Shown here one piece after another: positions 41,285 to 52,955 of a DNA stretch of 64,000 bases. This DNA comes from a bacterium (GTDB lineage: Bacteria > Actinomycetota > Acidimicrobiia > Spongiisociales > Spongiisociaceae). Under the pieces are notes generated by a model that did not search any database, had not been told where the DNA came from, and worked only from the letters and a program-made list of their open reading frames with translations. Position numbers and translations under genes: made by a program. The DNA lies in NCBI GenBank assembly GCA_028821575.1, contig JAPPFW010000076.1:1-64000 (forward strand), read 5' to 3'. Positions within the stretch are counted from its first letter, which is position 1; every line of letters begins with the position of its first letter.

Positions 41285-44200
41285 GCCGCAATGGAGGGGC
41301 AGTCGTAAGACTGCCCGTTCGAGGGGTCGGGCTAAGTTGACTCAAGAAGATAAAGTGCCGCAATGGAGGGGCAGTCGTAAGACTGCCCGTTCATGTGCAG
41401 ATGCTGCTGGGCGCACACGGTACCCGGCCGCAATGGAGGGGCAGTCGTAAGACTGCCCGTTCAAATCCCTTCCATGTTATAAGCTTCGCTGTCATATGCG
41501 GCCGCAATGGAGGGGCAGTCGTAAGACTGCCCGTTCTCGCTCGCCTCCGTAGCGAGAGGGCCAGTACCAGTGCCGCAATGGAGGGGCAGTCGTAAGACTG
41601 CCCGTTCGCTCCCGGCCGGATCGGGCGGCACCGCGTTTGTGCCGCCGCAATGGAGGGGCAGTCGTAAGACTGCCCGTTCTTAGTCGGCGGTTCAGAAGCA
41701 AGATCCGAGTGATCGGCCGCAATGGAGGGGCAGTCGTAAGACTGCCCGTTCACCGTTGGGCAGCCTATCGCCTGGCGATGGCCCAAATTGCCGCAATGGA
41801 GGGGCAGTCGTAAGACTGCCCGTTCTTACACTTGTGACGGTAGCTTGATCCGGGTGTGTAGGCCGCAATGGAGGGGCAGTCGTAAGACTGCCCGTTCCTA
41901 CGGTAATCGATCCCAGGGCCGCAGCTCTGTACCTGCCGCAATGGAGGGGCAGTCGTAAGACTGCCCGTTCCAGCCCCGGCGCTGGTCGGTGGCGGTCAGT
42001 GATGCTGCCGCAATGGAGGGGCAGTCGTAAGACTGCCCGTTCCTTCACAGCGGCGTACAGATTCTGCTGGGTCGGGCTGCCGCAATGGAGGGGCAGTCGT
42101 AAGACTGCCCGTTCCGCCGGTGCCGCGTTCTCCCAGGCGACCGGAGCGATGCCGCAATGGAGGGGCAGTCGTAAGACTGCCCGTTCGCTACCGGAGCGAC
42201 TACCAACATGATATCGCCTAGTGCCGCAATGGAGGGGCAGTCGTAAGACTGCCCGTTCCCAGATTCAACAGCTCTTTCATTAGCATTCTGAACTGCCGCA
42301 ATGGAGGGGCAGTCGTAAGACTGCCCGTTCCTCCTGAACAATTTCGTGTCCATGGAAGGCCGAAGGCCGCAATGGAGGGGCAGTCGTAAGACTGCCCGTT
42401 CCTTTCCCACGCCGGCCGTCCTCGTCGTACATGTACAGGCCGCAATGGAGGGGCAGTCGTAAGACTGCCCGTTCTCGCCACCGGTCCGCCACCACCAAAC
42501 TCGGCCGACCGCCGCAATGGAGGGGCAGTCGTAAGACTGCCCGTTCTTCGCATACCTTATGAACCCACGAGTGGTTGGGCTGCCGCAATGGAGGGGCAGT
42601 CGTAAGACTGCCCGTTCCATTGGAACTTGTACGCCGACCCGACAGCCACGTCGGCCGCAATGGAGGGGCAGTCGTAAGACTGCCCGTTCCTTACAGCGCC
42701 ATTATAGCAGGGTCACGCCAGGGCGGCCGCAATGGAGGGGCAGTCGTAAGACTGCCCGTTCCACCACGTTCACTCCGTCCCAGCAGAATCTGTATGCCGC
42801 CGTGCCGCAATGGAGGGGCAGTCGTAAGACTGCCCGTTCCTTCACAGCGTCGTACAGATTCTGCTGGGACGGCACGCCGCAATGGAGGGGCAGTCGTAAG
42901 ACTGCCCGTTCCAGATGGCTGCACTCGGAGGTGGGATACCTATGGAGACGCCGCAATGGAGGGGCAGTCGTAAGACTGCCCGTTCCCGCACGGCCCGGAC
43001 TACGGTGTCCACCACGATCTGCCGCAATGGAGGGGCAGTCGTAAGACTGCCCGTTCCCCGGGGACGGAGCATCGATCGGCAACGGCGCGAACGCCGCAAT
43101 GGAGGGGCAGTCGTAAGACTGCCCGTTCCTGGCGGGCGGAGCCGTCGCCGTACAGGCCAGTTGAGCCGCAATGGAGGGGCAGTCGTAAGACTGCCCGTTC
43201 ATCCGGCTACGGCTCCGGCGACGGCTGGGGCGCTGGGCCGCAATGGAGGGGCAGTCGTAAGACTGCCCGTTCGCGTCCGCCGCTGGTACAGTATTTTGGC
43301 CCGCAGGGCCGCAATGGAGGGGCAGTCGTAAGACTGCCCGTTCCCGGCTATGGCGGCGGATCGTGGCCGACTACGGCGACCGGCCGCAATGGAGGGGCAG
43401 TCGTAAGACTGCCCGTTCCGCTGTCAGGGCCGCTTCCGCTAGCGCCCTCGACGCGCCGCAATGGAGGGGCAGTCGTAAGACTGCCCGTTCATCTGCGGGA
43501 TCTGCGGCACGCCGAATGTCTGGCCACCGCCGCAATGGAGGGGCAGTCGTAAGACTGCCCGTTCCAACAACTGTTCACCAAACTCAGCCGACAAGACCAC
43601 AGCCGCAATGGAGGGGCAGTCGTAAGACTGCCCGTTCGGGGAACAGCAGCCGAAACCCGGCAACGAGGCCCTAGGCCGCAATGGAGGGGCAGTCGTAAGA
43701 CTGCCCGTTCCTGTCCCTCTGCAGGTACGTCACGCAGGCCAGACAGGCCGCAATGGAGGGGCAGTCGTAAGACTGCCCGTTCCTAGCTATTTTGGGTTAG
43801 CTATTCTGTTGCCTAACCGCCGCAATGGAGGGGCAGTCGTAAGACTGCCCGTTCCGTGTCCGACTTCCTTCCGCCGTACCCAGGGCGGAGGCCGCAATGG
43901 AGGGGCAGTCGTAAGACTGCCCGTTCGCCGGCCCCGCCGGAGTAGACGGTCGTCGTGGAGGGCGGCCGCAATGGAGGGGCAGTCGTAAGACTGCCCGTTC
44001 CCACGTTCTCCCCGAGCCAGCAGAATCTGTACCCCGCCGTGCCGCAATGGAGGGGCAGTCGTAAGACTGCCCGTTCACGCCGGTGCCGCGTTCAACCAAG
44101 CGACGGGAGCGATGCCGCAATGGAGGGGCAGTCGTAAGACTGCCCGTTCCACGTCCTGCACACGCTCGCCGGGGCGGCGACGCCCAGGCCGCAATGGAGG

Positions 44201-44295
44201 GGCAGTCGTAAGACTGCCCGTTCACTAGCCATTTAATGGGTTAGCTATTCTGCTTAACCGCCGCAATGGAGGGGCAGTCGTAAGACTGCCCGTTC
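41285..44295 (-). CRISPR. CRISPR array, 42 repeats, type I-G
   Basis: Forty-two identical 36-bp repeats alternate with 41 spacers of 34-42 bp (most 36). On the plus strand each repeat starts GCCGCAATGG and ends CCGTTC; positions 13-20 and 25-32 form the perfect stem GGGCAGTC/GACTGCCC around GTAA. Transcription is leftward: the leader and cas operon lie at the right end, and the repeat read that way ends CCATTGCGGC, like other type I-G repeats. No repeat is degenerate even at the far end. I number spacers 1 (41321-41356, oldest) to 41 (44224-44259, newest). Several are related: 11, 21, 22, 38; 12 and 39; 17 and 32; 35 and 41. Confidence 0.99.
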
Positions 44296-44466
44296 GGCTC
44301 GCCCCGAAACCTAGCCCTGACCTGGGGCTTTGTCAAGGTTTGCGAGCGGTACTTGAAAGGGCGGCCATGGTGGAGTCCGTATTCGGTTGTCAAGGAGCCG
44401 GAAACCCCTGGTAGAGCCACGAAACGAGCGCTTACGGGGGTTGCTGGTGTCACCAGACCGCTCGCA
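44296..44466 (-). promoter_or_regulatory. CRISPR leader with crRNA promoter
   Basis: On the minus strand a perfect TTGACA (44336-44331), a 17-base spacer and TAGGTT (44313-44308) place the start site at about 44300, a few bases before the first repeat. The motif CTTGACAA occurs a second time at 44394-44387, about 57 bases upstream, where no -10 follows; it may be an adaptation signal. The leader separates cas2 from the array. Confidence 0.7.
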
Positions 44467-44763
44467 TCAGATAATCACGGCACCGGATGCGGGCAATCTA
44501 GCCGCGACACCCATGAACTGGAAGCACTCGCGGCCGCGCTCCTCCGGGGCACCAAGGTCTACGATAGCTATGGAATCGGCAGCGTGGTGGATCACCGCGC
44601 CGAGGTCTGTCTTCAGCGAGAGCAGTTCCATGGCGTCCAGGTCGCAGATGAACACGCTGTACTGGAGGCTCCATCCGTAGCCCTTTACCGTCTTGTGGAC
44701 TCGGCGCAACCGTTTGTCATCTCGGATATCGTACGCCACTAGGTATCTCTTGCGTTTAGCCAT
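44467..44763 (-). CDS. cas2: CRISPR adaptation protein Cas2
   Basis: A 98-residue Cas2 with the ferredoxin-like fold start KRYLVAYDIRDDKRLRRVHK and YGWSLQYSVFICDLD. The conserved Asp after the first strand is D12. It forms the Cas1-Cas2 integrase that inserts new spacers next to the leader. It lies two bases downstream of the cas4-cas1 fusion and is the last gene of the operon before the leader. Confidence 0.97.
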   Translation of the reverse strand: MAKRKRYLVAYDIRDDKRLRRVHKTVKGYGWSLQYSVFICDLDAMELLSLKTDLGAVIHHAADSIAIVDLGAPEERGRECFQFMGVAARLPASGAVII

Positions 44764-44765
44764 CT

Positions 44766-46401
44766 CTATCTCGTCATGAACGGTACGTATTCGGGAATCT
44801 CGCCCAGAAGATAGGCACCGAGCATTCGAGCTTGAACCTCCAGCACACGACGGTAGGTGATGCGGTACTTGTACGTCGGATGGATCACCTGATGATCCAT
44901 CCGTCTCTCGTAGGCAGCAAGGAACGAGCGTCGGGCCTGTTGATTCAGGGCCACTCCTTGGGCACGGATGATGAAACCGGATGAGCGGATCTCGCCGTTG
45001 TTGATCACGTTGACTACTACGGAGTCGGCGACGAGGGGGCGGAACTCTTCGGCCAAGTCGAGGGCTAGAGCAGGTCGGCCGAATCGAGGTCGGTGGTAGA
45101 GCCCTAGGTAAGGGTCGAAGCCGACACCCAGCACCGTGGCGGTCAGGTCTTTGACGAGAAGCGAGTATCCGTAGGAGAGGAGGCAGTTTACCGCGTCGCG
45201 TGGGGGCCGCCGGTTACGCCCGTTGACATCGAAGGTGCCAAGTTCGTCATTCTTGAGCATTCCTGAGAAACGTCCGAAATAAAGACGAGCTGCTGTTCCC
45301 TCGATGCCGAGCAGCGACTCAACTGATGTCGCGGAGACTGCCTGATCTGCCAGTCGCTTCAGTTGCGGGAGCACGGGGCCTGTGTTGGTACGGGAGTTCC
45401 TTCGGAGGAACGTACGACAGTTGCGGATCTTGCCTTCGACCAAGCGTCTCGCTACAGGAAGGCCGGCTTGAGCAGCGATTGCAGCTTGGCGCCTGCGAAG
45501 TTCCACGTGCTTGGAGGGGAGTCCTTCGGCGATACCCTGGAACCATCCTCCGTAGGAGAACCAGCAAACCGGTATCTGTCTGCTAAAGGCGGCACGCATC
45601 AGCTGTGAGGACAGTTGGACATTGCCGTACACGGAGATCTGAGACACGTCGATCGCCCGAACCTGCGTGACTGTCTTGTTGTGGTGAGTCACGGTGACCC
45701 GTCCCCCACGCATGCCGACCTTCGCTCCCTGCTCGGTTATATATAGAGGTCTCGCAGCGGAATCGCGCGGCGTGAGTCGCCGAGGTCGTCTTCTGGATCG
45801 GCGGGTGTGGAGGTTGGTCTCATCAGGTAGGCAGATACCAACCAGGGAACATCGCGGGCACTTGGGACTATCGACAAGCGGCGGCGGAGGATCCGGTGCG
45901 GCCGCCACCGACCGGAGCGGTTCGAGCACCCCGAGCGTCCTCGAGACAAGCTCGTTGTCGAATGGCACGGTCACGCGGTGTCGTGTCTCCGCAAAGTAGA
46001 TCTGACCCTCTGTGCACTCGTATCCGTTGTCCCTCAGCAGCAGGCCGATCGCGCAGAGCTGGATCAGTTCCGGGGACCAGGCCGGTCCGTGGGAAGGTGG
46101 CCGACCCCGCTTCACCTCGATCGGAGTAACACTGCCATCAGCAGTTCCTTCGACGATGTCCGCCTTGGCGGTCAAGCCCAGCCGCTCCGAGCCGAGCGCC
46201 ACCGAACGAGCGATACGTACCGGCTCGTCCTCCGACGAGTCGCCTATAAGTCCTCCACCTAGGTCAACCCGTCGATGGACAAACCGTCCTTCAACGGTAT
46301 CGGGGTTGTCCTCGAAGCGGGCCTGCACCCATTCCAAATAAAAGAGACGTGGACAGTACTCGAATTCGTTGACCATTCGAACTGGTACGAGCTTCGGTAC
46401 C

Positions 46402-46409
<8 letters not shown>
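44766..46409 (-). CDS. cas4-cas1: Cas4-Cas1 fusion protein
   Basis: A 547-residue fusion typical of type I-G. The Cas4 part (about 1-205) has iron-sulfur cysteines C19 (FEYCPR) and C184, C187, C193 (CPRCSLVGIC), and RecB-type nuclease residues D84, E98 and K100 (PIEVKRG). The Cas1 part starts at PLYITEQGAKVGMRGG (about 221); its catalytic acidic/His residues lie in LGIEGTAARLYF and GLYHRPRFGRPALALD. Cas4 trims prespacers and selects the PAM; Cas1 integrates. Its start overlaps csb3 by eight bases. Confidence 0.97.
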
Positions 46410-51729
<5,320 letters not shown>

Positions 51730-51731
51730 GT

Positions 51732-52955
51732 TCAGTCCGATGGCTGTTGAGTGGTCGAGAGCGCTCGGCTGCGCTTGATGAGTTCCACGAGCTTCGGCGC
51801 GGGGACCATGACCATTTCGTCCGTCTGCCAGCCGATTCCTTCATCGGAGGCGTGGGAGGAGGCGCGGTCGAGAATGTTCCTGGCCGCGTGCCGGTCAATT
51901 GTGACCACTTCCGCAGGAGATCCGTCCCGACCGACCAACTCGACACGTGGAGGGTGCTCCGGGATCAACAAGCAGCGGGAGCGGAGGTCATAGTCCATCT
52001 CGTGCTGGTATGCGATCGAGGCAACACCCAGAGCCGCTACGGCGGTCCGGGCCGCGATCTCGGCGGCTCGACTGTGCCCAGAAAACCTCAGGCGCCGAAG
52101 GGCGGCTAGTGAAAGGACGGTGGTCTGTACGGCCTGGGAGATGGTTACCCCTCCGGCATCGGTGTCGATGGAAGGCGCGATATTCCCGTGGTTGATTTCC
52201 GCCGGCCTGCCGTCGCCCTTGATCTCTGGCTTACCCTTCTTCCGGGCGGCTTCGGAGTGCTCGAGAGTCCACACCTGGTCAGGGTCTTTGTGTATGAAGA
52301 TCTGCCGGGCTACCGCCTCCCGCTCGATCTGGAGTGGGTCGAGACGGCTACCGACCTTCTTGCCGATCTGGGCATCGAGACCGACGATTTCCGATACGTA
52401 CGCTCGTTGGAACTTGGAACCCAGTCCGCCCTTGGGACCTGTCGAGTCCCACATCCCGAATACGAGCGCGGTCGGCGAGTATTGGAAGAGTGCTGTCGCG
52501 TTCCGTGGTTGTGCATCCGTGATGGCACGTCCGGCATCAGACAGACGGAAAAGTGTTCCTCCGAGCAGGCTATCTCGGAAGATGGCGTCCGCCAGTCGAT
52601 GTGGTGCTTCCAGGACGGTCAACCGACCGATGTCACCGATCTCCCTTTCTTGCCCGAAGTCGACCAAAGGCACCGGGAACTTCAGTTCCCCCGACTCCCA
52701 ACCTTCGAGCAACGCCAGTTCGGCGCGGTTGGCCTGGGACGCAACCGAGTCGAGCAGAACGCTGGTGGACACTTTGCCGTCGTGATGCCGCTCCTCCACG
52801 GCGTACCTGTGTTCGGCGTTCTGTGCAACAGCGTAGGTCGGAGGGAACACCTTGTCGCCCTGGCCCCCGGCTGGCTGGAGCGTGGTCCGAGACCTGAGGG
52901 CAACCGCATCACCGGCGACGGCGTCCCGGAGCCGTTCGAACGTGAGTTCTGCCAT
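51732..52955 (-). CDS. csb1: Type I-G Csb1 (Cas7-like backbone subunit)
   Basis: A 407-residue GSU0053-family Cas7, beginning LTFERLRDAVAGDAVALRSR with the QPAGGQGDKVFPPTYA segment and VLLDSVASQANRAE, both typical. Multiple copies coat the crRNA spacer. First gene of the six-gene operon csb1-csb2-cas3-csb3-cas4/1-cas2, in which all junctions overlap or are two bases apart. GAGGAAGAGAC precedes the ATG. A TGTCACAC-type promoter lies 39 bases upstream. Confidence 0.96.
   Translation of the reverse strand: MAELTFERLRDAVAGDAVALRSRTTLQPAGGQGDKVFPPTYAVAQNAEHRYAVEERHHDGKVSTSVLLDSVASQANRAELALLEGWESGELKFPVPLVDFGQEREIGDIGRLTVLEAPHRLADAIFRDSLLGGTLFRLSDAGRAITDAQPRNATALFQYSPTALVFGMWDSTGPKGGLGSKFQRAYVSEIVGLDAQIGKKVGSRLDPLQIEREAVARQIFIHKDPDQVWTLEHSEAARKKGKPEIKGDGRPAEINHGNIAPSIDTDAGGVTISQAVQTTVLSLAALRRLRFSGHSRAAEIAARTAVAALGVASIAYQHEMDYDLRSRCLLIPEHPPRVELVGRDGSPAEVVTIDRHAARNILDRASSHASDEGIGWQTDEMVMVPAPKLVELIKRSRALSTTQQPSD

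Follow-up and report, generated by a model that had tools for sequence, protein, structure and literature searches.

Type I-G CRISPR-Cas systems (formerly I-U) with a Cas4-Cas1 fusion have been described in Geobacter sulfurreducens, Thioalkalivibrio sulfidiphilus, Methanosarcina barkeri and Bifidobacterium lactis. The PAM for I-G interference is TTN, and processing cuts the repeat 4 nt 3′ of the hairpin base to leave an 8-nt 5′ handle (PMC9638904); with the Cas4/1 of M. barkeri the PAM strand carries GAA, equivalent to TTC (PMC10274657). The window examined here, a whole stretch of 64,000 nucleotides, carries a locus that resembles the known I-G systems in its gene set, its 36-nt hairpin repeat with an 8-nt handle, its spacers of about 36 nt and its TTC/TTN PAM, and nothing essential differs (PMC9638904, PMC10274657).

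The cas genes adjoin the high-coordinate end of the array and all lie on the minus strand (Table 1). Judged from these genes the locus is a complete type I-G system, for which interference is a predicted function. The Cas1g profile match spans the full length of the Cas4-Cas1 fusion, and the closest relatives of this protein are in Acidimicrobiia genomes, with 91% identity in locus L072, which makes the host a probable Acidimicrobiia member. There is also a 77% identical Cas4-Cas1 in L075, a contig labelled Gemmatimonadetes, reflecting either misbinning or transfer. The csb2 and cas3 open reading frames as listed share 116 bases on the same strand (50068-50183), and cas3 may start later.

Table 1. 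Coordinates of the CRISPR array, selected spacers, leader and cas genes in the window.
Feature	Position	Strand	Remarks
CRISPR array	41285..44295	crRNA strand minus	42 identical 36-nt repeats and 41 spacers (34-42 nt)
Spacer 11	42043..42078	-	Family A, site 1; crRNA orientation AGCCCGACCCAGCAGAATCTGTACGCCGCTGTGAAG
Spacer 12	42115..42150	-	Family B; adjoins spacer 11; 32/36 with spacer 39, offset 0 from PAM end
Spacer 13	42187..42222	-	Tentative 12/14 overlap with PAM end of spacer 12; corrected P 0.48, unclaimed
Spacer 21	42762..42803	-	Family A, site 2, opposite strand to site 1; 42 nt
Spacer 22	42840..42875	-	Family A, site 1; shares 31/36 positions and the PAM-side end with spacer 11
Spacer 35	43783..43818	-	Family C; AT-rich; inverted repeat GGTTAG...CTAACC
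Spacer 38	44001..44040	-	Family A, site 2; 40 nt; shares 34/40 positions and the PAM-side end with spacer 21
Spacer 39	44077..44113	-	Family B; adjoins spacer 38
Spacer 41	44224..44259	-	Family C; leader-proximal, newest
Leader	44296..44466	-	Aligned with 11 other Acidimicrobiia type I-G loci
cas2 (putative)	44467..44763	-	98 aa; by position and sequence; same place in L072
cas4-cas1 fusion	44766..46409	-	547 aa; PADLOC Cas1g 637 bits; Pfam Cas_Cas1 and Cas_Cas4
cas8g	46402..47337	-	311 aa; PADLOC Cas8g 195 bits
cas3	47334..50183	-	949 aa; C-terminal HD domain; PADLOC Cas3g 789 bits; Pfam Cas3_HD at residues 781-939
csb2 (Cas5-Cas6 fusion)	50068..51729	-	553 aa; PADLOC Cas56g 405 bits; Pfam Cas_GSU0054
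csb1 (Cas7)	51732..52955	-	407 aa; PADLOC Cas7g; Pfam Cas_GSU0053 177 bits

On the crRNA strand the repeat reads GAAC-GGGCAGTC-TTAC-GACTGCCC-CTCC|ATTGCGGC, that is, GAAC, an 8-bp hairpin (from a computed fold), CTCC and then ATTGCGGC. This layout of hairpin, 4 nt and 8-nt handle fits the I-G processing rule, and most related arrays have the same one. The sequence that separates the array from cas2 can be aligned to the leaders of other I-G loci (L072, L073, L076-L078, L080, L082, L083, L089, L101 and L117) through the conserved blocks TTGACAA, ACCGCTCGCAA, CCCAGGTCAGG and GCGAGC, and the alignment stops at the repeat. Because the conserved leader lies at this end, spacer 41 is the newest in the array and spacer 1 the oldest.

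An earlier note on this DNA had described spacers 11, 21, 22 and 38 as variants of one phage coding sequence, and the coordinates that it gave for them are exact. Spacers 11 and 22, which it had put at 30 or more matches in 36 positions, agree at 31, and its observation that spacers 21 and 38, when reverse-complemented, cover the locus of spacers 11 and 22, such that both strands were sampled, is borne out by overlaps of 27/32 between spacer 11 and each of the two, and of 26/32 (spacer 21) and 24/32 (spacer 38) with spacer 22. The matches within these four spacers, which we refer to as family A, have P values from 1e-9 to 1e-3 after Bonferroni correction for 75,640 ungapped comparisons, and their best local scores (29 for 11/22, 28 for 21/38, and 19-24 across strands) compare with 18 or less in 1500 shuffled arrays. 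These data support the conclusion that one homologous locus was sampled four times, independently and from both strands. All four spacers have an invariant 14-nt block in common, wobble positions included, which would be unusual under simple coding drift.

The overlaps also disclose the sequences flanking each site. Spacers 21 and 38 run past the start of spacers 11 and 22 and show that it is preceded by TTC, which can be read before spacer 11 from both 21 and 38, and before spacer 22 from 21. On the other strand it is spacers 11 and 22 that reach beyond the point where 21 and 38 start, and there too the preceding three bases are TTC. In an unrelated I-G array (L107) spacers 26 and 28 overlap by 21 identical bases at an offset of 15, and TTC precedes the second of them. 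The TTC at both site A PAMs and in L107 agrees with the TTN of I-G interference. The same-site pairs have an offset of 0 at the PAM end, whereas the distal end makes them unequal in length (42/40 nt for 21/38, and 36/37 nt for the pair 12/39 described below), and because they share this exact PAM-side end while varying in length at the opposite one, the related spacers represent independent acquisitions and not duplications within the array.

The coding capacity of the locus is less clear than its homology. The reading frame TA-x-YRFCW-x-G that had been proposed is present in all four spacers and continues to NV in 21 and 38, but it cannot be taken as established, as a frame on the opposite strand, TF[T/S]PSQQNLYxAVK, is also present in all four and fits at least as well. 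The two frames are about equal in their synonymous changes, with 10 synonymous and 13 nonsynonymous among the differing codon pairs of one and 10 and 11 in those of the other, and the codon usage of the window's genes moderately favours TF[TS]PSQQNLYxAVK (11.9 versus 4.9 bits, summed over four related sequences). The proposal that the differences fall at the codon positions expected for homologous genes finds no support in the nine variable columns of family A, which are distributed 3/3/3 over the codon positions in every frame.

Two further families, B (spacers 12 and 39) and C (spacers 35 and 41), were absent from the earlier description. Two of the four differences in family B are at third codon positions. 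Spacers 35 and 41 are related by a gapped match with a local score of 19, the best score in 1500 shuffled arrays being 18. Both family C spacers are AT-rich and keep the inverted repeat GGTTA(G)...(C)TAACC; their sequence suggests a non-coding target that may be operator- or terminator-like. Other overlaps (13/12, 2/22 and 17/32) fail the multiple-comparison correction. Each of the six A and B spacers has another of the six as its neighbour (11-12, 21-22 and 38-39; P=0.002 for random placement), and because they pair in this way sites A and B can be linked to one invader lineage, with family B, acquired back to back with A twice, probably riding on the same invader. The pairing also suggests that several spacers were gained per encounter.

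Phages are the usual source of spacers, and we infer a phage as the source of families A and B. No protospacers were found in 50,697 phage records, plasmids, IMG/VR viral contigs or genome contigs, a weak absence since the pattern scans allow only the listed variants. Families A and B were searched as degenerate peptide patterns in both frames, together with the DNA core of family C, in the viral contigs, and one pattern was searched in the genome contigs; the concatenated spacers were compared with phages and families A-C with plasmids, joined peptides were used in tblastn, and padded peptides were compared with PHROGs and Pfam. Thus of the claim that the four spacers are variants of one phage coding sequence, the single homologous locus sampled on both strands stands, but the phage and the gene are both inferred and the protospacer search is negative. 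All pattern hits in viral contigs were inspected in context and are attributable to chance. An open reading frame of L064 (1376-2107), which by its sequence motifs is like a C26-type glutamine amidotransferase, ends in DPCQQNLYDAL and resembles the alternative frame of family A; at the DNA level it has three mismatches to site A and a reversed control pattern gives equally many hits, so that it is at chance level and a lead only. Tail-terminator (PVAWEN) or lysozyme motifs, considered as candidates, had no support and were dropped. Spacer 27 (43201-43236), which is rich in glycine codons, gives 25/25 matches to hypothetical proteins of Pectobacterium phages, which probably reflect composition and do not mark a protospacer.

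Diverged same-site pairs aligned exactly at the PAM end are also seen in the sibling I-G arrays L117, L083, L101 and L078. There are six such pairs among the 35,820 within-locus pairs of 37 other loci (1103 spacers), compared with 3 of 820 here, and re-sampling thus recurs in related I-G arrays. The rate in the window's array (3 seen versus 0.14 expected, P=4e-4) is biased, as this array was picked for the feature. In L117 and L083 the differences within pairs are concentrated at one codon phase, and the targets of these two are probably homologous genes. In a further array of 132 repeats (L082) there are three identical spacer pairs far apart, and its spacers 92 and 106 are exact reverse complements, the same fragment having been either inserted in both orientations or sampled from both strands.

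Taken as a whole, the observations are best explained by PAM-anchored re-sampling of one locus, most likely from several related mobile elements, and we regard this explanation as likely to be correct. Cas4 would fix the PAM-side end, such that re-samplings of one site begin at the same base, and the distal end would be measured loosely, giving spacers that vary in length. The copies of site A diverge by 14-25%, which would most likely reflect separate encounters over time with a number of related mobile elements, probably phages, and families B and C would represent further re-sampled sites. An old, mismatched spacer may still recognise a new variant and feed local fragments to the integrase. 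Whether interference-driven (primed) re-acquisition of this kind causes the recurrence is a separate matter, and we put it forward tentatively, as the likeliest of the possible causes though at less than even odds; the others are a naive uptake hot spot, or selection that retains those spacers whose target site is conserved. The re-use of sites A and B and their adjacent pairing bear on primed adaptation, in which new spacers would cluster around a site matched by an older one. Escape followed by priming is unproven, because seed mismatches are not enriched over all same-site pairs (10/72 versus 33/261). A more specific proposal, which we consider rather doubtful, is that I-G systems perform primed re-vaccination at the outdated spacer's own site, where a mismatched spacer would trigger uptake at its own protospacer, using either that protospacer's PAM or the one on the opposite side. 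If so, immunity to a diverged virus would be refreshed, and the array described here, with L117, L083 and L101, would be a natural record of the process.

The alternative that best survives concerns the cause of the recurrence and not the homology of the spacers: sites A and B could have been re-used by chance on a small invader genome, or through a naive uptake hot spot, with no priming involved. By our own estimate, about 100 TTC sites on a small element would be enough for several such coincidences, and the studies consulted report no I-G priming. One small genome would, however, predict that the other spacers overlap mutually, which they do not, and the same-site pair rate exceeds that of the 37 other loci, though in an array selected for such pairs; we regard this account as possible but not favoured. 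It is unlikely that families A and B derive instead from a single invader gene with internal domain repeats, encoding for example a tail fibre or adhesin. Such repeats would account for the repeated A and B sites, the adjacent pairs and the 14-25% divergence from a single infection; however, the acquisitions are spread over spacers 11 to 39 of 41, a long history, and the codon-phased differences in the sibling arrays L117 and L083 are typical of homologous genes. Several related invaders encountered over time are the likeliest source, ahead of repeats inside the genome of a single invader.

That the spacers target a gene or repeat of the host, whether through self-targeting or a host mobile element, is very improbable, and nothing in favour of it was found. 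Identical matches to a host repeat, which the earlier note had named as evidence against its reading, are not seen: in the assembled genome the A and B sites occur nowhere but in the array, which also accounts for every significant match that the spacers give there. Among 395 genomes of the class, family A gives two three-mismatch hits outside the window's genome compared with two in a reversed control, the level of chance, and no family B site was found. A history in which repeat-spacer units were copied within the array and then mutated, for which there is precedent in identical neighbouring spacers of related arrays (L073 11/12 and L113 12-14), retains almost no probability and is in effect excluded because spacers 21 and 38 are on the opposite strand to 11 and 22 and carry up to 10 flanking bases missing from them; moreover, all 42 repeats are identical whereas the spacers differ by 11-25%.

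PAM-anchored re-sampling suggests a cell that was immunised time and again against one invader's diverged relatives. From overlapping diverged spacers, the array alone yields the PAM, the rule of cutting and the sequence in which infections occurred, without a virus genome, an advantage where the viruses of a host are unsampled, as they are here. Re-sampling recurs in several I-G arrays from related hosts, so that primed re-acquisition by I-G systems can be tested. Primed adaptation in types I-B, I-E and I-F yields several spacers per encounter, clustered near the older target site, a pattern that the array described here may resemble. In Sulfolobus, overlapping protospacers have a fixed PAM-side end and a variable distal end, just as in this array, although there they derive from one plasmid in an experiment, and here from diverged natural copies (PMC4390879). 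The arrays of B. lactis, whose I-G PAM is TAT, unlike the TTC here, likewise hold spacers that differ by a few bases, whether adjacent or distant (PMC12915315); compared with these, the window's array shows greater divergence, draws on both strands, and allows the PAM of one spacer to be read from another. Re-sampling is ordinary CRISPR behaviour, unusually well documented at this locus.
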